Assembly: GCA_000153385.1 (NCBI GenBank)
Contig: CH672374.1
Span: forward strand, 349,119-413,118
Length of the DNA: 64,000 nt
Direction of reading: 5' to 3'
Source of the DNA: Flavobacteria bacterium BBFL7
Lineage (GTDB): Bacteria > Bacteroidota > Bacteroidia > Flavobacteriales > Flavobacteriaceae
The notes beneath the pieces were generated by a model that saw nothing but the letters and a program-made list of their open reading frames with translations, was not told the DNA's origin and did not search any database. Within the stretch, counting starts at the first letter, position 1. The number at the start of each line of letters is the position of its first letter. The position numbers and the translations under genes are program-made. Positions 1,107 to 62,374 of the stretch are shown here, in pieces.

Positions 1107-1126
1107 TACGCTTTCGCGAAAGCGTA
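1107..1126. repeat. Palindromic repeat, copy 1 (20-bp perfect palindrome)
   Basis: TACGCTTTCGCGAAAGCGTA begins at the base after the acpH stop codon and runs directly into the A-tract of the terminator that follows. Intergenic copy of the dispersed GCTTTCGCGAAAGC family. Confidence 0.95.
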
Positions 1127-1127
1127 A

Positions 1128-1161
1128 AAAAAAGCCTTTGTTGTTAAACAGAGGCTTTTTT
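1128..1161. terminator. Bidirectional terminator between acpH and the T9SS gene
   Basis: A 10-bp stem (AAAAAAGCCT paired with AGGCTTTTTT) with a 14-base loop lies between two convergent genes. The A- and T-tracts make it work as an intrinsic terminator in both directions. Confidence 0.8.
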
Positions 1162-1179
1162 AATAGAATATTTTTTTAT

Positions 1180-2949
1180 TTAATCTAGTATAATCTTATG
1201 CGATGAAAGTTGATTTGCATCCATAATATTCATAATATAAGTTCCTTTCTTTAAAGTAATAGGTAAATTAATTTTTAACGTATTACCTATAGAGCTAATC
1301 GATTGAGGATCAATTTTAATTTCCTGACCAAGCATGTTTGATAATTTAAAGTTTGCTTCATCTTTTAAACCAGAAATATGAATAGTATGATCATCTGTAG
1401 GGTTAGGATATACACTAACTTTATTATCTAAATTGAAGTTATCATTTGATAAGGTTACATTAGAAAATTTAATTTGAAAACGATTTTCATGTACACTTTC
1501 AGGTATAGATGAATCTATAGTAAAATTATAAGTTGTGGAACCATTTGACGATAAAGCAGTATATGAATTTAAAAATGAATCATATAAATATGCTGGAGTA
1601 ATAATTCCCTCGATTGAAATATTTAAATCATATTGAGACGATCTATAATTAGTTGCAATTAAATCGATATTATCACCATCTTGTATAGATTGTCTGTTTT
1701 CAATACTTAATAATTGACCACCATTTTTAATAGATATGTTTTCATCAATGTTAGTGAATTTTAAAGCATCTCGTGAATTAACTAGATTACTAGAGGTAGC
1801 ATTAACATTAAGGACCACGGCATCTCTTTCTCTAGATCCTTGTGCATATTCTGTAGATTCAAATAACTGAATCTTTAAACGAGAATTATTAATAGGAACT
1901 GAAAAGATATTTAATGCTTGCTGATTTACCTCTTTATTATTTTCTTCAAAAGTCAGGCTTGTTGATCCGTTATTTAAAGTGGTTACAAAAAATGCAGAAT
2001 TAGGTTGAAGATAATTATTAAAACCACTACTAACATTTGAAGTATTATTACTAATATCAACAGTGACATAAGATCCTCTAGTGTTAATAGTAGGATCCCA
2101 GAAATAAACAAAATTTGAATTAAGATTAGTAGAAACTGATAGAACCTCATTTAAATCAACAGGTGCTTGATATGGATTACCAACAAAATTAAATTCACCT
2201 GCAATTGAACTTAAATTTGAGACTGTTTCGGTACCTGTTTTTAAACTTCCTGTCGCTCTTAATACTGTGTTAGTTGCAACCGCAGTATTATTGGATAGGT
2301 CTGTAGTACGGTCACCTCTGATAAATAATCGATAAGGTGATCCCGCAACAAGAGTCGTTACATCTGTATTTTGAGGAGTTGTCCAAGATTGATTTATATT
2401 ATCATATCCAAATAAAGAAGGACTACCAGTAGCAGTAATGTCAAAACCATTTGCACCAGTTATTGAACCTGTAATATGAGTTCCAAATGATCCTAAAGTA
2501 GATCCGTTTTCTTGCCAATTTTCATAAATACTTCCAGTAGAATTTACAGAAGAAGATATAAACCTGAATGCTCTCTTTGCAGGTATGAAACGCTCTGTTG
2601 TGAATAATCCATTTACTACACCAATTACTTCATCAACAAAGGCTGTTCCATTAATACCACTTTTTAAGGTTATAATATTATTGCTGTTGACGGTTAAATC
2701 ATCTTCAATACTGAGTAATTCTGTAATGTTTAAATTGAGATTAACCGTGGTTTCATTTTCTATTATAAATACATCAATATTAAAATCATTACCATTAACC
2801 TGTTGAGGAACTGTTCCCGACATGATGATACTCGTTCCAAGATCTGTTATGGACCCATCATTATAAAGGTTTTCTGTAATAGTTATTCCTCCATTAGACA
2901 AAGCTAAATCTGCGCCACTATCGATAGTAACATTTTTAAACAATGTCAT
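1180..2949 (-). CDS. C-terminal part of a frameshifted T9SS-secreted sugar dehydrogenase (T9SS type A sorting domain)
   Basis: 589 residues counted from the internal ATG at 2949, but the frame is open further upstream to about 3075. There it reads in phase with the lamin-tail region of the preceding gene (TGENINFIYDNGW, then DPSGSSYQATDA). So this is not a separate gene but the 3' half of one gene broken by a 1-base loss or 2-base gain near 3076-3080. It has no signal peptide of its own. The last ~80 residues hold VYPNPT followed by a short beta-sandwich ending in KIILD, the type A sorting signal used by the T9SS to export and anchor cargo. The middle resembles the beta-rich filler regions common in flavobacterial secreted proteins. 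As it stands, the first half would not be exported through the T9SS. Confidence 0.75.
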   Translation of the reverse strand: MTLFKNVTIDSGADLALSNGGITITENLYNDGSITDLGTSIIMSGTVPQQVNGNDFNIDVFIIENETTVNLNLNITELLSIEDDLTVNSNNIITLKSGINGTAFVDEVIGVVNGLFTTERFIPAKRAFRFISSSVNSTGSIYENWQENGSTLGSFGTHITGSITGANGFDITATGSPSLFGYDNINQSWTTPQNTDVTTLVAGSPYRLFIRGDRTTDLSNNTAVATNTVLRATGSLKTGTETVSNLSSIAGEFNFVGNPYQAPVDLNEVLSVSTNLNSNFVYFWDPTINTRGSYVTVDISNNTSNVSSGFNNYLQPNSAFFVTTLNNGSTSLTFEENNKEVNQQALNIFSVPINNSRLKIQLFESTEYAQGSRERDAVVLNVNATSSNLVNSRDALKFTNIDENISIKNGGQLLSIENRQSIQDGDNIDLIATNYRSSQYDLNISIEGIITPAYLYDSFLNSYTALSSNGSTTYNFTIDSSIPESVHENRFQIKFSNVTLSNDNFNLDNKVSVYPNPTDDHTIHISGLKDEANFKLSNMLGQEIKIDPQSISSIGNTLKINLPITLKKGTYIMNIMDANQLSSHKIILD

Positions 2950-2957
2950 ATCTGAAA

Positions 2958-5396: not shown

Positions 5397-5430
5397 TTTT
5401 TGTAAATAAATTGATTGGTTAGTAAAATAA

Positions 5431-8400
5431 TTATTGAACAGCTAGTTTTACTGTTCTATTAGAGTTATTAGTGCTAAGATTTACCAAATAAATACCCGTT
5501 GAGATTTGAGGTATTTTAATACCTGATTGCTCATTAATTAATTCGCTTTCGCGAAAGCTTGAAATTAATTTTCCTGATAGGTCGTAAATGTCTAAACCAG
5601 TCAGTGCTTGATTTAATCCTTGAATTGAAATTAACGAACTATCATTATCATAGTACACTAATAAATCATCAATCTCTAGAGAAGAATTAGATAAAGTCGT
5701 TGGGTTATAGAAAACAATATCAAATCTATCTTCATCAATACCATCGGTACTAAAATAAAAATGATAATCTGATGCTCTTATATCATGGTATACATTTAAC
5801 TCATTGTCTTTTAACCAGACCTCTTGAGTTAAATCTATATTAGTAAAGTCAGTTGATGTAATTTTATATAAATTACCCGTGATTCCTTTAACTGCGAGAT
5901 TTACTACTTTATCATCAGTTATATCATTAAATGATTTTATGACAAATTGTTGGCCTTGAGAAGGTACAAAGAAATCAGTTTCATTCAATGTTCCCGTCAA
6001 ATAAGCATCATAACCATAATCATAGCCATCAGAAAGTCCACTATCAAAACCAATTGCTATTTGACGACTAGCACCAGTATCTGAAATTAACTCAAGACGA
6101 ATTAATTTAATATTTAAGTCTTGATAGCTAGACCTATCAGCAGTAGCTTGACTAGAACCAGGAGCTGCTAAAAATATACTTTCATTTAATGCTTCTTGTT
6201 TAAATACCCTTTGAGAATTATTAAATTCAATAGATCCATTATTAGTGATAGTCACAAAGAATGCTTGAGATACTGGTAAAAAGAATGTAGGTAATATAGC
6301 TGGACCGGCACCACCATTAAGATATCCTAAACCAGGGTATTGCGCTGCTTTAACGGTTGCCATCTTAGTAATTGTAGCATATCCACCTTCATAGTAGGCC
6401 AATTGATGATTTGTGCCTCTAAATTGATCCCATAAATAAACAGCTCCATCTATCACACCTGCATTATCATCAATAAATTCTCTTGCATCAAATGCAGATG
6501 GGTAAGGATTACCTAATAAAGAAGATGTTATATTTCCACTTATATGAGGTATTGCAGGAATACTAATTAAACCGTTATTGGGTTTACCTTTAAATAAATA
6601 CTCTTGATATCCTAAAGCATTTCCAGTTCCTTTTTGTGACCATCCATGTCCGGCTGCAATTTGAGTAACTGATGGATCGATTCTACTCCAGTCAGAATAT
6701 GTAGCACCATTTAGGAAAGTATGTAACCATCTTCCACTAATAGTAACAGGAGATGTTACTGGTGGTGTTCCTACATTGATACCCGTAAATTGCACAGGTC
6801 CTACATTATCTTCTAAATTAGATAATTGAAAAGAATTATTATTAGTTGTTGAGTTAATCTCACCCACAGGAGAACTCCAGTAATTATATGAATACACATT
6901 TGCTTCTCCTTGCTGCTTTCTAGTAATAAAACCATTACTTGATACATCCAAATCACTACTAATAGTTTGAACTAATTGAGCATCACCTTCTAAATCTATA
7001 TTCCCATCTAGTAAAACATACCAAGAATTCTCTATATAATTACCATCATTAACATCAATAGACCCAGAAGTTTCAAGCACAATTCCAATAGTTGAAATAC
7101 TATTGTCTAATACGGTTTCATGAGCTATTCTTACAATGGTGTAATCATAATTAAAAAGATCACTAGCTTCCCATACTGTATTTTGAACAAACGTACTATT
7201 TGATGATAACAATCCATCTTGATTGGTTACATAAGGAATAGGTGCTGTTTGAATTACAATTTCCTTTACATTATACATTTTAATGTCTATATTATTGGTA
7301 ACATCGTGAACAATATCTCCTTCAATACGGGTTATATCATAATAAATTGCTAATTCATTCCACAACATACTAGTGTCTTTAGGTAACACTACTCCTGTCA
7401 AATATGAACCGTTAGCTTCAATCTCTTGATACATAATTCTTCTCAAGTCATTGATATCTTGTGCACTATTAAAAACACGTATTTCATCTAGATATCCTCG
7501 ATAGTAATTAGAATTACCTGCTATTGACGAATTTCCAACTGTAAAAGGATTACCTGATAAGGATGACAACGGTAAGCCTGATGTAGCAATTACGCCTTCT
7601 TCTACTCCATTGATATAGAGTGTCATATTTACAGAATCATAACTAGCCGCTATATTCATCCATTTCACATCTGAAATAGTATTTGTGGAAGTAATGGAAA
7701 AAACATTTCCTCCGTTATCTAAAGCTTGTAAAACAACATTTCCAGAAGCGTTTAAAACAATATTAAAGTTTTCTTCACCCATAATTACAGCATCAGTCGT
7801 GGTATGATCTGCTAAAACCCAGACCATCATAGATGAACTATTCAATCCAGCAGTTATAGGAACATTGGTTTGTAAGTAATCATTACGTCCATCAAAATAT
7901 ATAGATAAGTCATCATTTAGATCAATAGGTGCACCATAAATACCTGTATCAAAATCATTATTACCATCATTAATTCCATCTCTATCTACATCACCCGTAT
8001 TATCAACTCTTCCATCATTATTCATATCCTGATCAGCATAATAAGAGTTATCTATATCACTTCCGTTAGATAAATCATTTGCAGCATCATTACTATCAAT
8101 ATCTAAATAATCTGGAATTCCATCATTATCTGTATCTAGAGGTAAAATAAAAGATGATGTTCCATGATCATCATCATCAGTATCATCATCATTATTATCT
8201 ATACCAGATAACAATCCGTCTCCATCAAATTGATCATTAAAAATTCCAGTAGTTGCATCTGTTCCTTCCCCTATACCATCACCATTGACATCTAAATCTC
8301 CTAGACCATCGTATTCTAATACATCAAAAACACCATCATTATCACTATCTAAATCTAAATAGTCAGGAACGGTATCACCATCACTATCTTGAGGACTAAA

Positions 8401-11313: not shown

Positions 11314-11351
11314 GATAACGCTTCTAAATTTTAACAATTAATTAAATAACA

Positions 11352-11811: not shown

Positions 11812-11922
11812 TGTTGTAGTTTTAATTATTATGTTTAAAGTTAAGAATGATTTATGATAAATTAGATAATCAGAATTGAAATCCTTAGGATTCGATAAAA
11901 TGCATGATTTCATCTTTAAAAT

Positions 11923-11940
11923 ACACTTTCGCGAAAGCGT
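11923..11940. repeat. Palindromic repeat, copy 3 (one mismatch)
   Basis: ACACTTTCGCGAAAGCGT, a single mismatch from the 18-bp palindrome, between the LysM gene and yebC. It is flanked by the direct repeat ATCTTTAA (11912-11919 and 11941-11948). Together with its right flank it shares 24 identical bases with copy 6 (11926-11949 versus 26305-26328). Confidence 0.9.
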
Positions 11941-11954
11941 ATCTTTAAGAATGA

Positions 11955-12698
11955 TTACTCCTCATCTTGCATAGTCGTGTATACATTATTCACGTCATCA
12001 TCCTCATCTAATTTTTCCAACAACTTTTCTACATCTTCGCGTTGCTCTGCAGTCACTTCTTTTTGCATAGTTGGAATATATTCAAAACCAGAACTAAGTA
12101 TTTCATGACCTAACTCTTCAATCCCTTTCTGAAGCGCTCCATAATTTTGAAACTCTGCATAAATCATAATACCATCTACAGAATTATCATCTTCTTCATC
12201 TTTCTCGTCTAGAAATAATTCTTCAGCACCAAAATCAATCAATTCTAATTCTAATTCTTCTAGATCAACATCACCTGCAGGGATTCTAAAATGACATTTA
12301 TGATCAAACATAAATTCGACCGAACCAGATGTGCTTAAATTCCCATCACATTTAGTAAAATAGCTGCGCACATTGGCGACAGTTCTATTGTTATTATCTG
12401 TTGATGTTTCTACTAGTACGGCAATTCCATGTGGCGCATAACCTTCAAAAAGAACCGTTTCATAATTTGCAGTGTCTTTATCTGTTGCCTTTTTAATAGC
12501 ACGTTCAACGTTTGCCTTAGGCATATTAACGGCCTTTGCATTTTGAATCACCGCACGTAATTTTGCATTAGACTCAGGATCTGGACCACCTTCTTTTACC
12601 GCAATGACAATATCCTTACCTATTCTTGTAAATGCTTTAGACATAGCGCTCCATCTCTTCATTTTGCGCGCCTTACGGAATTCAAATGCTCTTCCCAT
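11955..12698 (-). CDS. yebC: YebC/PmpR family protein (TACO1-like)
   Basis: 247 residues, full family length. Starts MGRAFEFRKARKMKRWSAM and contains TRIGKDIVIAVKEGGPDPESN and NVERAIKKATD, the conserved N-terminal block; the acidic C-terminal domain follows (DEKDEEDDN near residue 160, LDEDDDVNNVYT at the end). Members were long called DNA-binding regulators (PmpR). More recent work on bacterial YebC and mitochondrial TACO1 ties the family to translation of proline-rich or otherwise stalling sequences. Cytoplasmic. The first ~16 residues show the MGRAFEFRK form, which replaces the MAGHSKW start of proteobacterial proteins. Confidence 0.9.
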   Translation of the reverse strand: MGRAFEFRKARKMKRWSAMSKAFTRIGKDIVIAVKEGGPDPESNAKLRAVIQNAKAVNMPKANVERAIKKATDKDTANYETVLFEGYAPHGIAVLVETSTDNNNRTVANVRSYFTKCDGNLSTSGSVEFMFDHKCHFRIPAGDVDLEELELELIDFGAEELFLDEKDEEDDNSVDGIMIYAEFQNYGALQKGIEELGHEILSSGFEYIPTMQKEVTAEQREDVEKLLEKLDEDDDVNNVYTTMQDEE

Positions 12699-15290: not shown

Positions 15291-15809
15291 GTGAAATTAT
15301 ATCAATTCTCATCACAGCAGAAGTTGCCCATCTCTATCGATGAAGCATGGAAATTTCTAACAGATGCTAATAATTTGAAGTTACTCACTCCACCAGAGCT
15401 GGAAATGAAAGTACAGTATGGTACAGAAAGAGGTATGTATCCAGGCCAGTTAATAGAGTATACAGTAAAGCCATTACCACTTTATAGAACTAATTGGGTT
15501 ACTCATATTACTCAAGTTAAGGACAGAGAATATTTTGTGGATGAGCAAATGTACGGACCTTATGCAACATGGCACCATAAACATTTTATCAGTGAAATTC
15601 CTGGTGGCACCTTAATGGAAGATTTAATTCATTATCGATTACCGTTAGGGTTTATAGGCAAGTTAGGAGCACCATTTGTTAAGAAGCAATTAGATGAAAT
15701 ATTCCGCTTTCGCGAAAGCGCACTAATCAAGCATTTTGGTGAATATAAAGAAAATGCTCACACACTAAACGATCTACAAGAAACACAAAAACACGAAATA
15801 CTAAACTAA
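15291..15809 (+). CDS. SRPBCC family ligand-binding-domain protein
   Basis: 172 residues starting with GTG at 15291 (KLYQFSSQQKLPISIDEAW); the nearby ATG at 15289 is out of frame. IDEAWKFLTDANNLKLLTPPEL and YTVKPLPLYRTNWVTHI are typical of SRPBCC (START-like) proteins of the type that sit beside photolyase genes and were once called 'cell division inhibitor'. The helix-grip fold binds a hydrophobic ligand; the ligand is unknown. The gene is followed by an SDR gene (1-base gap) and a photolyase gene, suggesting a light-related group. Residues 139-143 (RFRES) are encoded by palindrome copy 4, near the C-terminal helix. Confidence 0.75.
   Translation: MKLYQFSSQQKLPISIDEAWKFLTDANNLKLLTPPELEMKVQYGTERGMYPGQLIEYTVKPLPLYRTNWVTHITQVKDREYFVDEQMYGPYATWHHKHFISEIPGGTLMEDLIHYRLPLGFIGKLGAPFVKKQLDEIFRFRESALIKHFGEYKENAHTLNDLQETQKHEILN
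15705..15720. repeat. Palindromic repeat, copy 4 (16 bp, intragenic)
   Basis: CGCTTTCGCGAAAGCG inside the SRPBCC gene, read in the frame giving RFRES near the C-terminal helix. Confidence 0.95.
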
Positions 15810-15810
15810 A

Positions 15811-16506
15811 ATGTCTAAAAACATATTACTTATAGGCGGCAGCCACGGAATTGGAAATGCAATTGTGCACCATATGCATAGTAATCACAATGTATATGTA
15901 GCCTCACGTAATGGTGAAAAATTACCCGAAAATGTTACTCACATACCTTTTGACGCACTAACTGACGAGTTAGATACTGATGATTTACCAGAATCTCTAG
16001 ATGGTTTTGTTTACTGTCCGGGAAGTATTAATTTAAAACCTTTTAAGATGTTAAAACAAGAGCATTTTGAAGAAGATATGAATATCAACTTCTTTTCAAT
16101 GCTTAAGGTAACTCGCACAATTTTACCTTTATTGACTAAGGAAGGAACGAGCAGTATGGTCTATTTTTCGACAGTTGCGGTAGGCACAGGAATGCCATTT
16201 CATACTAGTGTCGCAGCTGCTAAAGGTGCAATTGAAGGTTTTGCAAAAGCACTTGCAGCAGAGTATGCACCAACTATACGTGTTAATGTGATTGCCCCAT
16301 CATTAGTCGACACACCACTGGCTGGTAGACTGCTTAATAATGATGCTAAAAAACAAAAAATGGGAGAAATGCATCCTTTAAAACGTGTCGGTACACCAGA
16401 TGATATTGCAAGTGTTGCTGCGTTTCTACTAGAGCAAAATGCAGGATGGATTACTGGTCAGGTAATAGGTGTTGATGGTGGAAAAGGAACTTTAAACCTG
16501 GGATAA
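15811..16506 (+). CDS. Short-chain dehydrogenase/reductase with atypical active site
   Basis: 231 residues. Cofactor motif IGGSHGIGNA near the N-terminus (TGxxxGIG-like), and the FVYCPGSINLKPF strand replaces the usual NNAG. Ser120 and Lys138 of the catalytic set are present, but the position of the catalytic Tyr is Val134 (HTSVAAAKGAIEG instead of YxxxK). The C-terminus PSLVDTPLA, HPLKRVGTPDDIA and GQVIGVDGG is standard. So the Rossmann fold is intact but normal hydride-transfer chemistry is doubtful unless another residue substitutes. It starts one base after the SRPBCC stop codon and lies 129 bases before the photolyase gene; a role linked to that pair is inferred. Confidence 0.8.
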   Translation: MSKNILLIGGSHGIGNAIVHHMHSNHNVYVASRNGEKLPENVTHIPFDALTDELDTDDLPESLDGFVYCPGSINLKPFKMLKQEHFEEDMNINFFSMLKVTRTILPLLTKEGTSSMVYFSTVAVGTGMPFHTSVAAAKGAIEGFAKALAAEYAPTIRVNVIAPSLVDTPLAGRLLNNDAKKQKMGEMHPLKRVGTPDDIASVAAFLLEQNAGWITGQVIGVDGGKGTLNLG

Positions 16507-21498: not shown

Positions 21499-21927
21499 CT
21501 ATTTCAGTCTTAACCAAGTTTGAGTACGGTATAAAAAAAGAATATATCCTCTCACCATTAATAAATCTGGATTATCTTCATTGAGCCAGATTTTGCACTC
21601 ATAAGACTTGCCATTTTCAGGATCTAATACGGTACCATTTTTATACACTTTGCCTTTTTCTTCAAGATTGTTGATGATTACTAATCCTTCTATAGGTGCA
21701 TCTTTTAAATTACCATCACAATTGACACACAATGGTATATCTGGCGCAGCTGGATCTAGAACTTTAAGAACCTTACCATAGTATTTACCATCTTTTTCAA
21801 AAATTTCGACATGAGATTTAACGATACCAGATTCTTCATCTACGGTTTTCCATACACCTGTTATGTCTTGTGAGTACGCTTTCGCGAAAGCGAATAAAAA
21901 AAGTGCAAATGTTATTAATAATCTCAT
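21499..21927 (-). CDS. DUF2147 domain secreted protein
   Basis: 142 residues. Signal peptide MRLLITFALFLFAFAKAYSQ, cleavable after the Q or just before it. The mature part begins DITGVWKTVDEESGIVKSHV and ends RGYILFLYRTQTWLRL, the DUF2147 pattern, with a CVNCDGN pair of cysteines. The family is a small lipocalin-like beta-barrel of unknown role in the cell envelope. Residues AFAKA (13-17) of the signal peptide are encoded by palindromic repeat copy 5, so the repeat supplies part of the signal peptide. Confidence 0.85.
   Translation of the reverse strand: MRLLITFALFLFAFAKAYSQDITGVWKTVDEESGIVKSHVEIFEKDGKYYGKVLKVLDPAAPDIPLCVNCDGNLKDAPIEGLVIINNLEEKGKVYKNGTVLDPENGKSYECKIWLNEDNPDLLMVRGYILFLYRTQTWLRLK
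21877..21892. repeat. Palindromic repeat, copy 5 (16 bp, inside a signal peptide)
   Basis: CGCTTTCGCGAAAGCG in the DUF2147 gene, read as AFAKA at the end of the hydrophobic core of the signal peptide. Confidence 0.95.
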
Positions 21928-25787: not shown

Positions 25788-26454
25788 AGAACTCTTTTCT
25801 ACCTCTTAACATTTCACGTTTACCTGGTGGACCTGGCAATCGCTCAATTAAAAAACCGGCTGATTGCATATTTCTACGGGCTTGTCCTTGCGCACAATAT
25901 GTAGTTAATACTCCATTAGGTTTAAGAACTTTAAACGCTGCTTTAAAAATCTCTTCAGTCCATAAATCAGGCTGCACTCTAGGTCCAAATGCGTCAAAAT
26001 AGATTATATCAAAACAAGATTCATTATGTATTTGATCAAACTTTTTTTCAACTTTTTTGATCGTAAAAGATTCTGTAAGTTCTATAATCTGATTCCATTC
26101 GCAACCATGCAGTTGTTGATACAGCGTGTTGTCATTTAATAAATTACCATAATTCACTTCCATAGCTTCTTCTAGGCTTACGGGATAAGCCTCTACAGCA
26201 GTATAATTAATTTTAAATTTAGTAGGATATTGTGCCGTAATCATAGCATTAAGGCCAGTGCCTAATCCATACTCTAAAATAGAAATAGGAGTTGATATAT
26301 CATGCTTTCGCGAAAGCGTATCTTTAAGTCCCATTTCTATAAAAACATGAAGCGCCTCTTGCAAAGCGCCATGTTTTGAATGATATTGTTCGTTCCACTC
26401 TGGCATATGTATGGTTTTAGAACCATCACCAGTAGTGATTATTTCTCTTTTCAT
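25786..26454 (-). CDS. mnmD: tRNA (5-methylaminomethyl-2-thiouridine34)-methyltransferase MnmD
   Basis: 222 residues, a stand-alone MnmD-type protein (DUF752) without the FAD-dependent MnmC oxidase domain. TITTGDGSKTIHMPEWNE-like opening, ALHVFIEMGL, the SAM-binding ILEYGLGTGLNA, AVEAYP and FDIIYFDAFGPRVQPDLW are the family blocks. It carries out the last methylation of mnm5s2U at the tRNA wobble position. Residues ~46-50 (TLSRK within GLKDTLSRKHD) come from palindrome copy 6, in a loop between the first helix and the SAM-binding strand. The stop codon of the upstream DUF4920 gene is immediately adjacent. Confidence 0.9.
   Translation of the reverse strand: MKREIITTGDGSKTIHMPEWNEQYHSKHGALQEALHVFIEMGLKDTLSRKHDISTPISILEYGLGTGLNAMITAQYPTKFKINYTAVEAYPVSLEEAMEVNYGNLLNDNTLYQQLHGCEWNQIIELTESFTIKKVEKKFDQIHNESCFDIIYFDAFGPRVQPDLWTEEIFKAAFKVLKPNGVLTTYCAQGQARRNMQSAGFLIERLPGPPGKREMLRGRKEF
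26304..26317. repeat. Palindromic repeat, copy 6 (14-bp core, intragenic)
   Basis: GCTTTCGCGAAAGC in mnmD, read as LSRK within TLSRK. The core plus right flank shares 24 identical bases with copy 3 (26305-26328 versus 11926-11949). Confidence 0.95.
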
Positions 26455-32452: not shown

Positions 32453-32488
32453 ATAGTTATAATTTAAAGTGAATTATTGGTTGGTATA

Positions 32489-32506
32489 ACGCTTTCGCGA
32501 AAGCGT
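32489..32506. repeat. Palindromic repeat, copy 7 (18 bp)
   Basis: ACGCTTTCGCGAAAGCGT in the intergenic region upstream of both the DPP III gene (minus) and the sensor kinase gene (plus). Confidence 0.95.
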
Positions 32507-32612
32507 ACAACATCACCAAACTTCTTAAAATCAAATTTAAGAAATTAAACAATCTATAAATAATGCTTGAGAATAGATTTTCTAAGAGTTACATTTCTTA
32601 ACTATAGTTTAT

Positions 32613-36061: not shown

Positions 36062-38023
36062 CTAAAATTGGTACCTCATTCCTATTTTATAAGTTCTACC
36101 TCTAGTTTGATAACCAAAAAGTTCTTGGAAATCAGTATCAGTCACATTATTTATTCCTGCAAAAAAAGTTGCCGGAATATCTTTTAAACCATATGTAAGG
36201 TCTAAATCTAGTGTATGATAACTACTCAATACTACAGCATCGTTAGTGAAAGTATTGGAATTAAAAAATGAATCACCTCTATCATCATTATATTGATATC
36301 TTAAGGTTACAAAACCTCTAGAAATAGCTTGTACTCTTGCGCTAGCGTTAACTTTATGCTTAGGGATACGACGTAATAAGGATTGATCATTACGCTCTGT
36401 AAAACTATAATTTGCGGTAAGCATTAACTTATCAAACAACGTGGTCTGACCACTGACCTCTACACCTTTGGCCGTTAATTCTTCATCTACATTTTGATAC
36501 TGAGAAATGAAGTTAACAGGATCTATCGTTACAAACTGTACTAGATTATTTTCATCACGCTGGAAAGCACTTACTGTTATAGTACTTTTTCCTTTTGTCC
36601 AAGAAATGCCTGCTTCCATAGTAGTGTTTTCTTCTGGATTAAGTTCTTCATTCCCAAAACCAGCTGCATATAGTTGAAACAGTGATGGCGTTATATAAGC
36701 CGTACTATAACTTCCGTATACTTTAAAACTTGAACTTCCTACATTGAATCTGTATGATGGATTTAAATTATAAACCAACTGTCCATCATAATTGCTATGC
36801 TTATTATACCGAGCACCAGCATTTACATTAAGACCAAAATCACTGATGTACACCACATTTAAATATGGGTCATAAATCTGTGCATTAACATCATCTTTAT
36901 CAGCATTTTGTTCAAAACTAGAACTACCGAATGGGATACTAAAATCCTCATAACGATCTGTTCTAAAATTAAAACCAACTATCGTTTTCAGTGATGAAGT
37001 CTCACTTAAATCAAATGTATACTTATTGTATAAGTCTAACGAATAGCCATCTGCATTATAAAGTGATGGGAAACTACTTCTGTTATCACGACGTGTATGT
37101 GTACTTACGTCAGTATATACGATTTCACCTTTTGTACTATATTTCCAGTTCACATTTGTTCCCCATCGTACTTGTCGGCTATAAGTTTCATTATTGGCAT
37201 CAACTAGTGAGAAATCATCAAATTCAGCAGTGTATTCATCAAATGACACATAACTAGATAGCTTGAAATTTTTCTTATTATCATATCCTATTCTACCTAG
37301 TAAATTGACCCTATTAAAGTCGTCAGACTCATTAGGTGAGGCTCCATCTGCAGCTTCGGCAGCACTTATTCCTCCATTAGTAGCTTGATGATTAAAACCT
37401 AGACCATAGGTCAAACCATTTTTTGCAGTACCTTGTAATTGTACGCTATTTGTAAATTCATCTGGACCATTATTTGCTTGCTCCACACTTTTGTTAGTAC
37501 CTATAAATGAGGCAACTGTTACACGCACACCAGTTTCAGGAGACTTGCGCAGTTTTATATTGATAACAGCTGTACTCGCATTAGCGCCATATAAAGTACT
37601 TGCCGCACCTTTCAATATTTCTATTTCCTCGATTTGATTAAGGTCTACCAGTCTTATATCAAACTCATTGCTGATGTTACTGGCATCATTAACTTGTGCT
37701 CCATTTATTAAAAACGCTACCTGTCTGGTGCTACCACCACGTACAAAATACCCTAGATTTTGCCCAGCATTACTACGTGCTCCATTCATTTCAATACCAG
37801 CATATTGATTTAATAAATCTGCAAGACTTGCAGCACTCTGTGCCTCAATATCAGCTCTGGTAATTTTGATAACAGGCTTACCGCTATCTTTTCTAGTTAA
37901 TTCAAACTTAGAATCTGCACTGATTAGTACCTGATCCAATTTAGTTGCAGTAGAATCTACTTGTGCAATTCCCGACACAGCAGCTACCATCATAGCGCTC
38001 ATGGCAATGATTTTTTTGTTCAT
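36062..38023 (-). CDS. TonB-dependent receptor, BtuB-like (vitamin B12 uptake)
   Basis: 653 residues. Signal peptide MNKKIIAMSAMMVAAVSGIAQ, TonB-box-like start and a plug domain (~45-165; IKITRADIEAQSAASLADLLNQ, YFVRGGSTRQVAFLINGAQVN, EIEILKGAASTLYGANASTAVI). A 22-strand barrel follows and ends with an aromatic residue (KIGMRYQF). Substrate is deduced from context: a cobalamin riboswitch lies in its 5' leader and a BtuFCD-like ABC system is divergent from it. It therefore probably moves cobalamin or a related corrinoid across the outer membrane, powered by TonB. Confidence 0.9.
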   Translation of the reverse strand: MNKKIIAMSAMMVAAVSGIAQVDSTATKLDQVLISADSKFELTRKDSGKPVIKITRADIEAQSAASLADLLNQYAGIEMNGARSNAGQNLGYFVRGGSTRQVAFLINGAQVNDASNISNEFDIRLVDLNQIEEIEILKGAASTLYGANASTAVINIKLRKSPETGVRVTVASFIGTNKSVEQANNGPDEFTNSVQLQGTAKNGLTYGLGFNHQATNGGISAAEAADGASPNESDDFNRVNLLGRIGYDNKKNFKLSSYVSFDEYTAEFDDFSLVDANNETYSRQVRWGTNVNWKYSTKGEIVYTDVSTHTRRDNRSSFPSLYNADGYSLDLYNKYTFDLSETSSLKTIVGFNFRTDRYEDFSIPFGSSSFEQNADKDDVNAQIYDPYLNVVYISDFGLNVNAGARYNKHSNYDGQLVYNLNPSYRFNVGSSSFKVYGSYSTAYITPSLFQLYAAGFGNEELNPEENTTMEAGISWTKGKSTITVSAFQRDENNLVQFVTIDPVNFISQYQNVDEELTAKGVEVSGQTTLFDKLMLTANYSFTERNDQSLLRRIPKHKVNASARVQAISRGFVTLRYQYNDDRGDSFFNSNTFTNDAVVLSSYHTLDLDLTYGLKDIPATFFAGINNVTDTDFQELFGYQTRGRTYKIGMRYQF

Positions 38024-38164: not shown

Positions 38165-38325
38165 TAAGCTGGCAGGTCTCCTGACTTATTTATTTCTATC
38201 GCCTTCCCAAGTCTAAGACTCAGTGACCTATGATAGAAATCTCGATGAGACATCTTCTTTAAAGATGTAAACTTTACAGTTGCGGGAACAGTTCTAGATT
38301 CACACTAGATTCCCTTTTAATCCTA
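38165..38325 (-). ncRNA. Cobalamin riboswitch
   Basis: Read on the minus strand: GGGAAT near the 5' end (38314-38309), then a GTGAATC segment, CTGTTCCCGCAACTGT, an arm ending in GGTCACTGAGTC, CTTGGGAAGGC, and AGTCAGGAGACCTGCC (38186-38171). These are the successive conserved blocks of the AdoCbl/cobalamin aptamer (the B12 box in the 3' half) in the right order. It precedes a BtuB-like receptor gene, the classic target. Cobalamin binding would switch off expression. Confidence 0.9.
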
Positions 38326-38341
38326 TAATCTTCATATATCT

Positions 38342-38357
38342 CGCTTTCGCGAAAGCG
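38342..38357. repeat. Palindromic repeat, copy 8 (16 bp)
   Basis: CGCTTTCGCGAAAGCG in the divergent region between the cobalamin riboswitch and the ABC substrate-binding gene. Confidence 0.95.
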
Positions 38358-38408
38358 TAATCCAACTAGAGAAACCAATTTTACACGGCAAATGTATGCT
38401 AATAATAG

Positions 38409-40579: not shown

Positions 40580-41358
40580 TGATACGTTTACAACATATAG
40601 AAATAGGTTATGGTCACTGTGTAATAGCACAAAGTGAAGAAGATATCGCTTGCGCGAAAGGTAAATTTATCACCTTATTAGGTGCTAATGGAACAGGTAA
40701 ATCTACTTTGCTACGTGCTATTTCTAACAATCAACATGTAATTAAAGGCACTATTTACATAAACAACACTAACATAATTAATATTAGTGATTTAGATAAA
40801 TCAAAATCTATTGCTGTTGTTCTTACGAATCGTGAGTTCAGTCAATTCTTAACTGTTGAAGAAATCTTATATTTAAGTCGTGCACCATACACTAATTTTT
40901 TAGGAAAGCTTACACCATCAGATATCGCTTTTGTGGAAGAAATCATGACTGATTTTGAGATCTTAAAAATGAGGTCGCGTAGGCTATCAACGTTAAGTGA
41001 TGGACAATTACAACGCGTACTTATCGCAAGAGCATTAGTTCAAGACACACCTTATATTTTAATGGATGAGCCTACCAGTCATCTTGATGTACATCACAAA
41101 GCAGAAATCTTGCTAAAACTTAGAGACTATTGCCATCAACATCACAAGTGTATCATATTCTCTAGTCATGAGTTGAGTATTGCTTTAGCTCTATCAGACG
41201 AAGTGATTGCTATCCATGATTTAAAACTTACACATCAAAGTAAAGACGATTTCATTGCGTCTGATATGCTATTAAAAATGTTCCCGTCACCATTGCTAGA
41301 TTTTAAAGATGGTTTATTGGGATTGAAAATAAACGATGATAAATCTAAAACATCATAA
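40579..41358 (+). CDS. ABC transporter ATP-binding protein, BtuD-like
   Basis: 259 residues. Walker A GANGTGKST, Q-loop in VVLTNREFSQFLT, signature LSDGQLQRVLIARAL, Walker B YILMDEPTSHLD and switch His in FSSHELS. It powers the FecCD-type permease encoded just before it. The degenerate palindrome copy 14 lies in its first 30 codons (DIACAKGK). Confidence 0.9.
   Translation: MIRLQHIEIGYGHCVIAQSEEDIACAKGKFITLLGANGTGKSTLLRAISNNQHVIKGTIYINNTNIINISDLDKSKSIAVVLTNREFSQFLTVEEILYLSRAPYTNFLGKLTPSDIAFVEEIMTDFEILKMRSRRLSTLSDGQLQRVLIARALVQDTPYILMDEPTSHLDVHHKAEILLKLRDYCHQHHKCIIFSSHELSIALALSDEVIAIHDLKLTHQSKDDFIASDMLLKMFPSPLLDFKDGLLGLKINDDKSKTS
40647..40661. repeat. Degenerate palindromic repeat, copy 14
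   Basis: CGCTTGCGCGAAAGG matches the 16-bp palindrome at 13 of 16 aligned positions. It lies in the BtuD-like gene and may be a decayed copy or chance resemblance. Confidence 0.35.
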
Positions 41359-45703: not shown

Positions 45704-45747
45704 TCTTCCTAAAATTCTCATAATGTATCCTTAAGGTGTTGTTATCA

Positions 45748-45763
45748 CGCTTTCGCGAAAGCG
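45748..45763. repeat. Palindromic repeat, copy 9 (16 bp)
   Basis: CGCTTTCGCGAAAGCG between the aldehyde dehydrogenase and the DUF2945 gene. GTTAT on the left and ATAAC on the right extend the inverted symmetry imperfectly. Confidence 0.95.
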
Positions 45764-45790
45764 ATATAACGTCTATCTTTAAAAGAAAAA

Positions 45791-49347: not shown

Positions 49348-49378
49348 ATTTTTAGATTCTAGTATTTTAAATGTTAAC

Positions 49379-49396
49379 ACGCTTCCGCGAAAGCGT
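49379..49396. repeat. Palindromic repeat, copy 10 (one mismatch)
   Basis: ACGCTTCCGCGAAAGCGT, one mismatch from the 18-bp palindrome, between the carbonic anhydrase and the DUF3857 gene. Confidence 0.9.
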
Positions 49397-49406
49397 ACTT
49401 AAACAG

Positions 49407-49472
49407 CACATATAATACTTAACAATGTACCTTGAATACTACTCACGGTAATCGCTTTAGGTATTATATGTG
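49407..49472. repeat. 12-bp inverted repeat with 42-base loop, followed by a T-rich stretch
   Basis: CACATATAATAC (49407-49418) and its exact complement GTATTATATGTG (49461-49472), then TTTTATTATTTT up to the next ATG. This is a possible terminator or leader structure of the DUF3857 gene at 49487. Confidence 0.5.
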
Positions 49473-53639: not shown

Positions 53640-53651
53640 CATCAGATTTAC

Positions 53652-54608
53652 TTATAAATTGAAACGCTCTAGAGATTTTTCTAGAGCGTTTATTTTTTGC
53701 TCCATTTTATTAAAGAAAATGGAACGCTCTTTTAAAGAACTATCCTTAATAGATGTAGATTGGCGCATCTGATGTTTGAAAAAGTTATTCATTCTATTAA
53801 GTATATTACTGCCACTAAATCTGATGTAACCCAACATAGTCATCGTCACAAAACCTGCCACGGGAATACCACTTTTACGCACAACAGCATTATTACTCAT
53901 CAATAATAATTCGTGATAATAGATATTATAAGAATCGTGCATTAAATCTGTAGCTGTGTTTTTAAGTAATTCTCTTAAATCATTGCATAACACCTTAGCC
54001 GTATCATGATCGATATAACCTGCCTCGTGATAAAAATGAATTTGCTGTAAACTACTAGATATAGTAGTGTCATTCCATATTTCTATCCTATTAAACTGCT
54101 CAAATAAGGCCTTATTTCTCTTTATTTGTTCCTTAATAGATAAGGGTAAATGAAAATCTGCAAAACGCTTGCCTTCCATAGTATCGTCTAGTAAGTGTAA
54201 CCAGACGTAAATTTTAAATCTGCCTAACAGAGAATCATTAAAATGATGAAAAACTGGTATATCCTTGGCACTATAAATCCACTCGACATCATCTTTACCA
54301 GCAGCTTTTAAGTTAATTTCCATTTCCTTAAAATACTTCTCAAGGCTTTCTATAGAGTTAATGGTATCCGTAGCGGTGCCCAAAGCGGTCAAATCCTGTT
54401 GAGCGGTCATAATCTGATCTAACGAGAACTGACCAGCTTTGGCCAACTTCATAGATTCTGCTATATCTAATTTTGCATTTCCTTGTATCCGGCGATAAGC
54501 AGCATCATAGCTTATTTCTAGAACATCTGCTAGGTGTTGAATTACAGACTTGGTTTTGGGTACGCTTTCGCGAAAGCGTTCTATAATCATCTCTTGGACA
54601 AGTAACAT
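53652..54608 (-). CDS. Helix-turn-helix regulator of flavobacterial type
   Basis: 318 residues. N-terminal HTH (SVIQHLADVLEISYDAAYRRIQG, then LDIAESMKLAKAGQFSLDQI) followed by a ~240-residue helical C-terminal domain of unknown fold (IHFYHEAGYIDHDTAKVLCNDLR, YHELLLMSNNAVVRKSGIPVA). I recall many similar proteins in Flavobacteriaceae, generally uncharacterised. Residues 11-15 (RFRES) are encoded by palindrome copy 11 in front of the HTH. Its last codons overlap the terminator of the convergent DUF3857 gene. Confidence 0.7.
   Translation of the reverse strand: MLLVQEMIIERFRESVPKTKSVIQHLADVLEISYDAAYRRIQGNAKLDIAESMKLAKAGQFSLDQIMTAQQDLTALGTATDTINSIESLEKYFKEMEINLKAAGKDDVEWIYSAKDIPVFHHFNDSLLGRFKIYVWLHLLDDTMEGKRFADFHLPLSIKEQIKRNKALFEQFNRIEIWNDTTISSSLQQIHFYHEAGYIDHDTAKVLCNDLRELLKNTATDLMHDSYNIYYHELLLMSNNAVVRKSGIPVAGFVTMTMLGYIRFSGSNILNRMNNFFKHQMRQSTSIKDSSLKERSIFFNKMEQKINALEKSLERFNL
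53662..53691 (+). terminator. Terminator of the DUF3857 gene pair, embedded in the convergent HTH gene
   Basis: A 12-bp stem (AAACGCTCTAGA with TCTAGAGCGTTT) followed by TATTTTTT. It lies within the last 14 codons of the HTH gene (LEKSLERFNL). Confidence 0.8.
54562..54579. repeat. Palindromic repeat, copy 11 (18 bp, intragenic)
   Basis: ACGCTTTCGCGAAAGCGT near the N-terminus of the HTH gene, giving RFRES at residues 11-15. Confidence 0.95.
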
Positions 54609-54701
54609 ATTTGTGATTTTCGCAAATTAAAGATAATACAAACTTATTATTCACGTTAATAATTGTGAATATGATTATAGATTTGATTAAAAGATTTAAT
54701 T

Positions 54702-56007: not shown

Positions 56008-56089
56008 GTGCAATGTTACCTCATAATTATCACAGAAACTTCATCTATATTAATTCTAACATTACTTTATAATTCTGCATTTTTGCAAG

Positions 56090-57277: not shown

Positions 57278-57343
57278 AATTTAAAACTAGCAAAAGTCTT
57301 GCCTAAAACGTTGAATTTTAGACATAATTATGACTTCAACAAT

Positions 57344-57386
57344 AAAAAAAGGTTTAATTACGCTTTCGCGAAAGCGTAATTAAACC
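57344..57386 (-). terminator. Terminator of murA built from palindromic repeat copy 12 (36-bp perfect palindrome)
   Basis: Bases 57351-57386 form a perfect 36-bp palindrome centred on the GCTTTCGCGAAAGC core and extended by ATTAAACC-type arms. On the minus strand it is followed by seven Ts (57350-57344), so it makes a complete intrinsic terminator 19 bases after the murA stop codon. Confidence 0.85.
57361..57376. repeat. Palindromic repeat, copy 12 (core of the murA terminator)
   Basis: CGCTTTCGCGAAAGCG with further perfect symmetry out to 57351-57386. Confidence 0.95.
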
Positions 57387-57404
57387 CATTTTAAATTTTA
57401 TTTC

Positions 57405-58715: not shown

Positions 58716-58816
58716 TTTTGTATCGTATTAATATTTTAAAAATACGAGTATCTATGCGGCTTGAAAAGCTTTATAGGAATAACTATTCATATTTAATTAA
58801 CAATACTATTAACTAA

Positions 58817-58840
58817 AAAAGCAGCCCAAAGGCTGCTTTT
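58817..58840 (-). terminator. Terminator of the DUF4290 gene
   Basis: A 10-bp stem AAAAGCAGCC/GGCTGCTTTT with a 4-base loop and flanking A/T runs, 22 bases after the stop codon at 58863. It implies that murA has its own promoter between here and 58715, although I could not identify a convincing -7 box. Confidence 0.8.
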
Positions 58841-58862
58841 AAATAGCTATTTATAGAATATA

Positions 58863-59528: not shown

Positions 59529-59596
59529 AATGATTTTTTAATTACTTGTGAAGAGCTGCAAAATAAGCATTTTACCGCAATAATATTACATAAAAA

Positions 59597-59884
59597 TTAT
59601 AAAGAAATAACACCTTCTATCTTCCCTACTTCTTTGTATTTTTCAATAACAGCTTCGGGAGATGACATCGTTACTTTTATCGAGACGCTCGTATAAGTTC
59701 CTTTACTAGAAACTTTGTGTTCAATAATTGCGCCCAATCCATCAAATATCGTAGAGATAGAATCTGTCTTCTCTGGTATAGATGGAACAATAAATTTATA
59801 CATGTATTTTGCAGGCCAGACACTCGTATCTGCCAGTTGATCTTTCAGTTTTTTATAAAACTCGTCAGAATTATTTGAATCCAT
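59597..59884 (-). CDS. DUF493 family protein (YbeD-like)
   Basis: 95 residues. KYMYKFIVPSIPEKTDSI, SSKGTYTSVSIKVTMSSPEAV and the final EVGKIEGVISL match the small alpha/beta fold of DUF493 (E. coli YbeD), which resembles ACT-like regulatory domains. Function unknown. Confidence 0.85.
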   Translation of the reverse strand: MDSNNSDEFYKKLKDQLADTSVWPAKYMYKFIVPSIPEKTDSISTIFDGLGAIIEHKVSSKGTYTSVSIKVTMSSPEAVIEKYKEVGKIEGVISL

Positions 59885-59957
59885 AATTTAAATATGTACA
59901 AATATAAGTCAACATATAACGTACACTAAAATTGATTTTAGTTATTTTGTAACTATT

Positions 59958-60491
59958 ATGACAGATTGTAAAAGAATATTAATAATCGGTGGACCAGGTT
60001 CTGGTAAAACGACCTTAGTAAATTATATAGAGCAACAAGGTAATATTGTACATCATGAAATATCGAGACAAGTTACACTAGAGGCTCAAGAAAAAGGAAT
60101 CGATCAATTGTTTTTAACAGATCCTTTAGCATTCAGCAACAGTCTTCTAGATGGGAGAATAAATCAATTTAAAAATGCTATATCTGGTATTAATTACTAC
60201 GATCGTGGTATACCTGATGTACCTGCATATCACATTTTTACAGGAGACCCAATTCCTGATAATTATATTGATGCCTGTAAGAAGTATCAATATGATATCG
60301 TATTTCACTTACCACCATGGAAAGATATTTATGAGTCTGATAATGAACGTTATGAAACCTTTGAACAGGCGCAACAGATCAGTGATATTTTAGTCGCTTA
60401 TTATAAAAAATTTAATTATCAACCTATCGATGTACCACAGGGAACTGTAGAACAACGTTTTCAATTTATCCAAGACCATCTCTCCTATTGA
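59958..60491 (+). CDS. AAA-family ATPase of the NadR-kinase type (AAA_28)
   Basis: 177 residues. P-loop GGPGSGKTTLVNYIEQQG, then EISRQVTLEAQEKG, a DRGIPDVPAYHIFTGD segment with the DRG motif, VFHLPPWKDIYESDNERYETFEQ and FNYQPIDVPQGTVEQR. It is a small nucleotide kinase-like protein related to the NadR C-terminal domain; the substrate is unknown. Stop codon overlaps the TTG start of recQ. Confidence 0.85.
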   Translation: MTDCKRILIIGGPGSGKTTLVNYIEQQGNIVHHEISRQVTLEAQEKGIDQLFLTDPLAFSNSLLDGRINQFKNAISGINYYDRGIPDVPAYHIFTGDPIPDNYIDACKKYQYDIVFHLPPWKDIYESDNERYETFEQAQQISDILVAYYKKFNYQPIDVPQGTVEQRFQFIQDHLSY

Positions 60492-62374
60492 ATCCAGAAG
60501 CAAAAAGCATATTAAAAAACACCTTTGGCTTTGATGATTTTAGGCCACAACAAGAGGAAATAATAACAGCCGTTATAGATGGTAATGATATTATGGCTCT
60601 ATTACCTACTGGTGGTGGAAAATCTCTATGCTATCAAATTCCTGGATTAGTGCGCAACGGTATTTGTATAGTTATATCTCCGTTAGTAGCTTTAATTAAA
60701 GATCAAGTAAATACGTTAAAACAAAAAGGTATAAAAGCCACTGGAATTACTGGTGGAATAAGCTATAAAGAATTAGATGATATATTAGATAACTGTATTT
60801 ATGGGCAATACCAATTTTTATATTTAAGTCCAGAAAGGTTACAGCAAAGCCTTGTTCAAGAACGTATATCAAAAATGCGTATTTCTCTTATAGCAGTAGA
60901 TGAAGCACATTGTATAAGTCAATGGGGACATGATTTCAGACCAGCATATCGAGACATAAGTCTTTTGCGCTCTATACATAAAGAAGTTCCTGTCATCGCA
61001 GTTACTGCTACCGCGACTACATCTGTACAAAAAGATATCATAGAAAACTTACAGCTTGAAAATGTAAAAGTGTTTAAAAACAGTTATTTGAGACCTAATA
61101 TTTCATATCAAATAACCAATACCACAGATAAATCAAATTCATACATTAATTTTTACAGAAACCATGGCGGCAGTTCTGTAACTTATGTACGTAGTAGAAA
61201 AAATGCAATTGAATACTCTAGATTACTCACTAGTCATGGGATTTCTTCTGGCTTTTTTCATGGAGGATTACCTAATAAAATTAAGGTAGATACCGCACAA
61301 CGCTGGATGAAAAACCAAACGCAGGTAATGGTAGCTACTAATGCCTTTGGGATGGGAATAGACAAACCAGATGTACGTACCGTTGTTCACTTGCAGTTAC
61401 CAGATAGTATAGAAAGTTATTATCAGGAAACAGGTCGTGCCGGACGTGATGGTAAGAATAGTATTGCTCAGTTTTTCTATAATATCAACGATATCAATCA
61501 TGCGCAAAATCAATTTATCAAGTCCTTACCTTCAGTAGAGAATATCAAATTTGTATACCGTAAACTCAATAACTATCTACGTATTGCAATGAATGAAGGT
61601 GAGCACACCACTCATCAATTGAGTTTCTCGGACTTTGCACGGACTTATTCCATTAATGGGATGATGTGTTATAATGCATTACTAACATTAGATCGTTTTA
61701 GTGTCATTAGTCTATCACAAAGCTATCATAGAAGATCTAATATACGCTTTCGCGAAAGCGGGAAAAACATCATAAACTTTCTAGGAAATCATAAGGAAAT
61801 GAATGCCATCGTGCAAGCCATATTACGTACTTATGGCAGTAGCACCTATCAAAATCTAGAAATCAATACCTCTATCATCGCACTGCGCAGTAACACTACT
61901 GAACAAAAAGTGATTGAGACATTACAGAAACTTGAAGAACAAGAATATATAGAAGCTAATATCATCGATGCCGATACGCAAATTAACTTTTTAGTACCAC
62001 GAGATGATGACCGAACTATTAATAGATTTTCAAAAGAGCTCTCGAAACAAAATGAAATTAAAAAGCAGAAGCTCGAACAAATATTCTACTTAATCTCTCA
62101 AAATAAACAATGCATTAATATGCTTATTTTGAGATACTTTGGTGAGAAATCAAATCCTTGTGGCAATTGTTCCGTTTGTAGAGATCAAAAGTCTACTGTT
62201 CTTTTATTAGATCGCATTAAAGATGTACTTATTAAAAGAGATTTAAATAGTAACGAAATCGCATCTTTGCTTCCTGAAGCAGACAAAAATAATATCGTAG
62301 AAACCTTGAAGCTGTTATTAGAGCAGGGAAAAGTTTCAATACATCAAAATCATAAATATCACTGGAATGGATAA
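60488..62374 (+). CDS. recQ: ATP-dependent DNA helicase RecQ
   Basis: 628 residues with a TTG start overlapping the upstream stop codon. ILKNTFGFDDFRPQQEEII, Walker A TGGGKSLCYQ, DEAH box VDEAHCISQWGHDFR, SVTYVRSRKNA and GRAGRDGKNS are RecQ helicase motifs. The zinc-binding domain with cysteines (NPCGNCSVC) follows at ~555-563. It unwinds recombination and stalled-fork structures. Residues ~420-424 (RFRES within IRFRESGKNI) come from palindrome copy 13. Overlaps fmt by 8 bases. Confidence 0.93.
   Translation: MNPEAKSILKNTFGFDDFRPQQEEIITAVIDGNDIMALLPTGGGKSLCYQIPGLVRNGICIVISPLVALIKDQVNTLKQKGIKATGITGGISYKELDDILDNCIYGQYQFLYLSPERLQQSLVQERISKMRISLIAVDEAHCISQWGHDFRPAYRDISLLRSIHKEVPVIAVTATATTSVQKDIIENLQLENVKVFKNSYLRPNISYQITNTTDKSNSYINFYRNHGGSSVTYVRSRKNAIEYSRLLTSHGISSGFFHGGLPNKIKVDTAQRWMKNQTQVMVATNAFGMGIDKPDVRTVVHLQLPDSIESYYQETGRAGRDGKNSIAQFFYNINDINHAQNQFIKSLPSVENIKFVYRKLNNYLRIAMNEGEHTTHQLSFSDFARTYSINGMMCYNALLTLDRFSVISLSQSYHRRSNIRFRESGKNIINFLGNHKEMNAIVQAILRTYGSSTYQNLEINTSIIALRSNTTEQKVIETLQKLEEQEYIEANIIDADTQINFLVPRDDDRTINRFSKELSKQNEIKKQKLEQIFYLISQNKQCINMLILRYFGEKSNPCGNCSVCRDQKSTVLLLDRIKDVLIKRDLNSNEIASLLPEADKNNIVETLKLLLEQGKVSIHQNHKYHWNG
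61745..61760. repeat. Palindromic repeat, copy 13 (16 bp, intragenic)
   Basis: CGCTTTCGCGAAAGCG in recQ, read as RFRES. Confidence 0.95.

Follow-up and report, generated by a model that had tools for sequence, protein, structure and literature searches.

An evenly spaced palindromic element of about 50 bp in flavobacterial genomes and its possible role as a DNA-uptake signal

Why should a genome keep a perfect palindrome at nearly even intervals, inside genes as well as between them? The question is raised by a stretch of 64,000 nucleotides from the marine Flavobacteria bacterium BBFL7 (assembly GCA_000153385.1, contig CH672374.1, positions 349,119 to 413,118; the whole stretch is called the window below), in which the 14-bp perfect palindrome GCTTTCGCGAAAGC recurs. 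The palindrome is the centre of a larger mirror-image element, which may serve in the uptake of DNA.

Number and spacing of the palindrome

Sixteen places in the window match the palindrome at three mismatches or fewer. Of these, 11 are exact, those at 11925 and 49381 differ at one position, that at 40648 at two, and those at 16237 and 33049 at three. Dinucleotide-shuffled windows contain 0.99 matches on average and four at most, and none of the 100 shuffles got to 16. The 13 good copies start at 1110, 5545, 11925, 15706, 21878, 26304, 32491, 38343, 45749, 49381, 54564, 57362 and 61746, with a mean gap of 5053 bases and a standard deviation of 1363 (coefficient of variation, CV, 0.27). An earlier note on the window had counted 11 exact copies, two with one mismatch and one decayed, and had put the mean gap near 5.1 kb and the standard deviation near 1.4 kb; the rescan and the recomputed gaps agree. 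Copies do stand at the starts that it gave, although its coordinates are 0-3 bases too low.

The window's genome (3.10 Mb) holds 551 exact copies of GCTTTCGCGAAAGC, about 178 per Mb; the reversed-pattern control gives 0. Gap statistics are based on 100 of the 551 copies, all on contig C1. The CV of their gaps is 0.58, below all 10,000 random placements (lowest 0.715), and one of the 99 gaps is shorter than 1 kb, where 17 would be expected. These gaps run from 0.49 kb to 21.8 kb, and the evenness is looser than in the window. The largest gap is occupied by ordinary genes, alanine dehydrogenase and dihydrouridine synthase among them, and the copies at G000:C1:407090 and 407579 are the sole exact-core pair among these 100 less than 1 kb apart. 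Since the sites favour intergenic DNA, placements that keep the split between coding and intergenic DNA were also used. For positions 1-400000 of C1 (71 sites), none of 10,000 such placements is equally even, and where 12.7 gaps below 1 kb would be expected there is none. A second genome, G020, has 98 sites in 20 separate 20-kb stretches, with 1-7 in each (variance/mean 0.60); two of 78 gaps are below 1 kb, and over these 20 bins the site density does not change strongly from one end of the chromosome to the other. The earlier note had named random gaps or a chance copy number genome-wide as what would speak against its reading; with 551 copies and a CV of 0.58, neither is seen.

Anatomy of the element

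When the 82 exact copies found in 464 kb of the window's genome are aligned, the palindrome extends in both directions. In 90% of half-sites the base adjoining the 14-bp core is the same by symmetry, G at the right end and C at the left, which gives a 16-bp core, CGCTTTCGCGAAAGCG. From +4 to about +18 outward, both sides are almost free of G (of C on the left, by symmetry). The element is a mirror-image unit of about 50 bp, made up of the CGCTTTCGCGAAAGCG core and an arm of about 15 bp on each side. The earlier note saw only the centre of this unit and missed its extent, its arms and its taxonomic limits.

The G fraction of the arms is 0.067 at sites within open reading frames (ORFs) and 0.044 at sites between ORFs, against 0.142 in intergenic DNA. 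Since the arms are poorer in G even than intergenic DNA, they are not a product of gene structure. Arms in the genomes G250, G020 and G005 are equally poor in G (0.055-0.057, against a background of 0.176-0.198). On both sides, the arms are A-rich and G-poor in the outward direction, with some bases other than A and T. The flanks run to T on the left and to A on the right, and what they share is base preferences, with no copied sequence. An origin of the arms from C-to-T mutation alone is ruled out, because the outward strand is also T-depleted and C-enriched. Compensating changes within the arms are likewise rejected: at 10 of 11 flank positions, bases on the two sides of the core pair as often as independence predicts, or nearly so, and at flank position 2 they pair mildly more often (36 versus 28). 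In stretches L285-L289 of genome G234 (genus g209), the core is present, 13 times in 100 kb, while the arms and the flanking base are weakly conserved; the sequence suggests that this version of the element may be decaying or may be read differently.

Perfect copies prevail. The 464 kb contain 82 exact copies, 14 with one mismatch and seven with two, and in five other site-bearing genomes the exact and one-mismatch copies number 98/14, 21/6, 18/4, 14/1 and 13/2. Outside the motif, the inner words of the core show no enrichment: CGCG occurs 289 times against 311 expected, TCGCGA 45 times against 32, and TTCGCGAA not at all against 3.7. The whole element is therefore the unit under selection.

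Conservation in place

The positions of the sites in relatives, a check that the earlier note had asked for, show that they mostly hold their place. In G001, which is 84% identical in the aligned parts, 11 of the 13 window sites align base for base; 10 of these are kept at no more than one mismatch and one is altered. As for the other two, one matching place is without a site and one cannot be aligned. Eight of nine exact window cores persist; among aligned 14-mers overall, 14% are identical. The more distant G005 offers three comparable sites, one of which is kept, one kept with one mismatch and one lost.

Which genomes carry the element

All 23 genomes examined of the window's genus have between 288 and 857 copies. 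The same survey took in 13 genomes from other genera of the family, one of which has six copies, and 23 genomes of other families, which have none. In a sample of 397 genomes drawn evenly across the family, only three genera exceed 19 copies, all remaining genomes having 0-19. The three are the window's genus (four genomes), g209 (G234, 408 copies) and g225 (G250, 857 copies). G250 is Dokdonia sinensis, since 8,000 of its bases are identical to scaffold 1 of that species. Among named genomes, a 20-bp form of the site occurs in at least 108 stretches, of which at least 88 are from Dokdonia, at least 18 from Nonlabens, at least one from Muricauda and at least one from another flavobacterium. Judged by sequence matches, the window's genus is most likely Nonlabens: two proteins of G005 match N. 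antarcticus at 87% and 99%, and for Nonlabens loci the matches in G020 reach 83-86%. The name is taken from these other members because it is they, and not the window's own genome, that match Nonlabens; the latter has no close orthologue among the few Nonlabens loci compared directly.

In a tree of a single gene, PriA, from 30 genomes, the site-bearing genera do not form one clade and three changes are needed, with Dokdonia and G234 grouping (99/97) with the site-free genus g163. Since the site genera are scattered in this tree, the site has been gained or lost repeatedly, or has moved. The scattered copies examined in g163 (L339 and L340) have no arms.

A search of 20 kb from each of 20 site-free genomes (18 genera) turned up no palindrome of 12 or 14 bp that recurs, and at 10 bp the one hit was TTTTATAAAA. 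The search is weak: of three positive controls, two returned the site and the third, G234 (L285), did not. Elsewhere, L316 (G245:C1:1000001-1020000) has TTGGCCAA 11 times in 20 kb, where 0.3 would be expected, perhaps as another iterated palindrome. L383 (G438:C1:1095001-1113000) has five exact cores 2.3-2.6 kb apart, in a genome with seven in total; the arms are good in some of these cores and poor in one.

Gene context

Simple ORF calls place 44 of the 82 exact sites within ORFs, in all three frames (22, 12 and 10), and 38 outside, where 9-10% of the DNA lies. Sorted by the orientation of their neighbours, the intergenic sites number 11 (++), 13 (--), 8 (-+) and 5 (+-), with one undefined, and so track the available space. 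No orientation preference relative to genes is found among the 82 sites.

What the element may do

The element may be a new variety of DNA-uptake signal, a reading to which we give an even chance. A receptor of the competence machinery would prefer DNA that carries CGCTTTCGCGAAAGCG with about 15 bp on each side nearly free of G in the outward direction. DNA from kin would then be taken up and recombined more often, so that sites born by mutation would spread and be retained up to about one per 5 kb. A second site near an existing one would add nothing, and short gaps would be rare. That uptake does the selecting, which protein is the receptor and that these bacteria are competent are all inferred in this scheme. 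In its favour speak the 551 copies, the excess of perfect ones, the even spacing, the preference for intergenic DNA, the strong core with long flanks, and the absence both of a link to gene orientation and of a strong trend along G020. Precedents exist for several of these features. In the uptake signal sequence (USS) and the DNA uptake sequence (DUS), perfect copies outnumber singly mismatched ones, a puzzling trait that sets them apart from regulatory binding sites, whose consensus is relaxed (PMC1626085). Both are described there as somewhat more regular than random and as favouring non-coding DNA while having many copies in coding DNA, and the USS as having flanking AT-rich segments spaced about one helical turn apart (PMC1626085). 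The Flavobacteriaceae include competent species, and it is reported that the machinery of Riemerella lacks known homologues for several parts and that DUF5689 is a domain of a gene essential for its transformation (PMC8459023). Riemerella columbina is described as preferring its own DNA (PMC7965970). A further point for uptake comes from the Nonlabens phages P12024S and P12024L (35.7 kb each), which are taken as lytic because their annotation names no integrase. They have no copy at two mismatches or fewer and no TCGCGA, where about six sites would be expected at host density, although resident or mobile DNA does carry sites. The presence of ComEC and DUF5689 in the site-bearing genomes allows the uptake reading and is no proof of it.

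Several observations weigh against uptake. The palindromic core departs from the known uptake sequences, which are not palindromes (PMC1939737), and a dimeric intracellular protein would fit a perfect palindrome more naturally. ComEC is present without stops in all 21 site-bearing genomes tested and is also found in all 14 site-free ones, and DUF5689 in all 10 site-bearing and all 16 site-free genomes tested; being equally common without sites, they leave the distribution of the element unexplained, and the site-bearing genera do not come together in a tree built from the DUF5689 protein. The type II/IV ATPase family PF00437, which drives pilus-based uptake, is over the cut-off in none of six site-bearing genomes, against five of 14 others. 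Among PF00437, ParB_N, RecC, DUF5689 and ComEC, none tracks the sites. The arms of G234 are weak, with a G fraction of 0.159 against a background of 0.221. The two Nonlabens phages are close relatives and therefore amount to about one independent case, and the density used for their expected count is that of the host genus and not of the actual host strain. Because the element is palindromic, and because no ATPase passes the cut-off in the six site-bearing genomes, we would describe it as acting in the manner of an uptake signal, without classing it as a USS or a DUS.

The earlier note had proposed a function at the scale of the chromosome; a chromosome-wide function at the level of DNA gains support from the copy number, the evenness, the conservation in place and the absence of a tie to gene orientation. 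From its list of functions, uptake fits best, and a target of methylation is disfavoured, since the sub-palindromes are unenriched outside the motif and the arms are long. That list also contained nucleoid and segregation sites. A site bound by a nucleoid-organising, segregation or nucleoid-occlusion dimer, covering about 50 bp and required about every 5 kb, is the main rival, a possible explanation though a less probable one than uptake. Sites of the ParB/Noc and MatP type are palindromic dimer sites spread over the chromosome, and a dimer of this kind would suit the perfect palindrome, the mirror-image arms, the scarcity of close pairs, the even spacing and the conservation of 10 of the 11 alignable window sites in G001. 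As a nucleoid site, the element would be, to our knowledge, among the densest and most regular. Each of six site-bearing genomes has a single ParB_N match, that is, no second ParB-type protein, which weighs against a Noc-like ParB; the lack of a strong density trend along G020 also speaks against such a dimer, and closely related groups of genera are split entirely on the sites in the PriA tree, which would be odd for a basic chromosome function. Moreover, an excess of perfect copies is described as atypical of intracellular binding proteins (PMC1626085). None of these points is decisive, and nothing speaks against a protein of a new kind. Even spacing, which the earlier note took as a sign of a chromosome-scale function, has been described for uptake sequences as well (PMC1626085), and therefore does not decide between uptake and chromosome organisation.

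The remaining explanations are less probable. Chi motifs are short and act on one strand, while the element is a 16-bp double-strand palindrome with two arms. RecC is found in none of 20 genomes, the E. coli control being positive (AddAB was not searched). A bidirectional Chi-like signal for recombination or repair, which would halt an exonuclease arriving from either side, is accordingly improbable, even though each strand is G+T-rich 5' of the core and the density of about one per 5 kb is near that of the 1008 Chi copies reported for the E. coli genome (PMC1939737). Still less credible is a highly iterated palindrome tied to a DNA methyltransferase, like HIP1 of cyanobacteria. Over-representation and a GC-rich CGCG centre would fit it, but CGCG, TCGCGA and TTCGCGAA outside the motif are at or below about 1.4 times expectation, which leads us to reject a methylation word; long arms would not be expected, and about 178 copies per Mb compare with the 1000-2000 per million at which such palindromes generally occur (PMC4390886). 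The least credible of all, to which we attach next to no weight, is an RNA-level element (a terminator or a processing hairpin) or the spread of a small mobile element such as a repetitive extragenic palindromic (REP) type repeat. The core can form a hairpin, the copies are dispersed and 38 of 82 lie outside ORFs; however, the intergenic copies track space and not convergent ends (+-, 5), more than half of the copies are in ORFs and in all three frames, and the flanks carry no copied sequence. Their run of T on the left and A on the right is the reverse of a bidirectional terminator. On gene context and flank direction, a terminator or processing hairpin is rejected.

Individual sites of the window

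The 13 elements of the window are given here without strand. The first (1092-1141, exact core 1110-1123) lies right after an ORF that ends at 1106 and ahead of a convergent ORF, and the matching place in G001 has no site. The second (5527-5576, exact core 5545-5558) is in the C-terminal coding part of a 1910-aa ORF on the minus strand and cannot be aligned to G001. The element at 11907-11956 has one mismatch in its core (11925-11938, ACTTTCGCGAAAGC), where the aligned place in G001 has an exact core. Four sites with exact cores that are kept in G001 lie in or close to ORFs: 15688-15737 (core 15706-15719) within an ORF, 21860-21909 (core 21878-21891) close to the start of a 142-aa ORF on the minus strand, 26286-26335 (core 26304-26317) within a 222-aa ORF on the minus strand, and 61728-61777 (core 61746-61759) within a 628-aa ORF of the RecQ family. 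The exact core 54564-54577 (element 54546-54595), close to the start of a 318-aa ORF on the minus strand, is kept in both G001 and G005. The element at 32473-32522 (exact core 32491-32504), which is flanked by divergent ORFs, and the intergenic one at 45731-45780 (exact core 45749-45762) are kept in G001. Two more are intergenic. That at 49363-49412 has one mismatch in its core (49381-49394, GCTTCCGCGAAAGC), G001 having the same variant and G005 a different one-mismatch copy, and that at 57344-57393 (exact core 57362-57375) is changed in G001 and missing at the aligned place in G005. The two-mismatch copy at 40648-40661 is possibly a decayed site or a chance match.

The element at 38325-38374, kept in G001, has its exact core (38343-38356) in a 40-nt extra stretch of the variable loop of a cobalamin riboswitch (RF00174; 38155-38394, minus strand; 87 bits, gathering threshold 31.5), upstream of an ORF for a TonB-dependent receptor (36062-38023). 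Such a variable loop tolerates insertions in the RNA.

Islands and phages

The few copies found in other genera are often clustered. In 20 such places, picked as loci that carry the core, 44 sites were scored: the arms of 35 exceed the 95th percentile of random flanks from the window's genome, and those of the other nine do not. Most of these loci belong to a set of related islands that carry genes for metal resistance (CusA/CusB type, copper oxidase, P-type ATPases), in Muricauda too. Pairs of islands, which are not independent of one another, retain 52 of 107 aligned sites; for 14-mers the figure is 14%. It is likely that the metal-resistance genes passed through site-bearing genera. The idea that the clusters are conjugative elements was set aside, as the proteins tested are metal-resistance cargo.

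The related islands (L117-L132, L036 and L377-L379) are spread over many flavobacterial genera, and site spacings of 933 and 2446 bases recur in them. A second ParB_N protein, of 598-616 aa, occurs in several genomes with islands, namely G145, G259, G033, G245 and G188; in G033 it lies about 3 kb from the island stretch. Four adjacent ORFs (432, 226, 1056 and 313 aa) at 12771-18830 of L376, on the minus strand, have a layout that we take to be like that of a Wadjet/JetABCD-type defence operon.

On viral contigs, 35 of 132 scored sites have good arms, by a null drawn from the AT-rich genome of the window and with some contigs that are near copies of one another; the other sites look like chance copies in unrelated phages. 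Among 20 viral records selected by arm score, G445 has seven sites in 37 kb and the others have 1-5. Structural genes of phages are present on L256 (in G445) and on L188, and an integrase on L189.

Taken together, these data may point to an uptake system in Bacteroidota that recognises sequence without a pilus, or else to a new system of chromosome bookmarking, in which a symmetric receptor or a dimer would read a 50-bp mirror-image site; we hold this joint reading to be a little short of evenly balanced. In it, Nonlabens and the lineage of Dokdonia would each have gained or lost the site on their own, and the site would mark genes that later moved to other genera, which we rate equally tentatively. 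Whether it is an uptake signal or a nucleoid site, the element is a natural tag of where horizontally moved genes have been.

Comparison with known systems

No report of the element, in Nonlabens, Dokdonia or elsewhere, was found in the part of the literature covered; the core string occurs in no paper there, and the papers listed for TTTCGCGAAA show no topic of bacterial genome repeats. As an uptake signal, the element would be palindromic and would belong to a phylum for which we found none reported; its bearers would also lack, at the cut-off used, the pilus ATPase on which known systems draw. It would then offer a DNA ligand with which to fish for the receptor of the poorly understood transformation machinery of flavobacteria.

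The element differs from sites of the ParB/Noc and MatP type in its far larger number of copies, in the lack of a strong trend along G020 and in the absence of an extra ParB-type protein. It is similar in density to Chi sites but is palindromic and much longer. Like HIP1 and the other iterated palindromes of cyanobacteria, it is dispersed and over-represented; its core is longer and has arms, and its copies are rarer. Natural transformation in Riemerella belongs to the same family and shares ComEC and the DUF5689 gene, but no such site is reported there, and the putative-signal k-mers of R. columbina are A-rich words (PMC7965970). Compared with the USS and the DUS, which have a density of about one per kb, the element is sparser, at about one per 5.6 kb, and is perfectly palindromic with arms on both sides, and none of the six site-bearing genomes has a type II/IV ATPase over the cut-off. 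Yet it resembles both in its hundreds of copies, its excess of perfect copies, its preference for non-coding DNA with many copies in coding DNA, its regular spacing and its restriction to particular genera, and it resembles the USS also in being built from a core and flanks, though its flanks lie on both sides and are not purely A and T.

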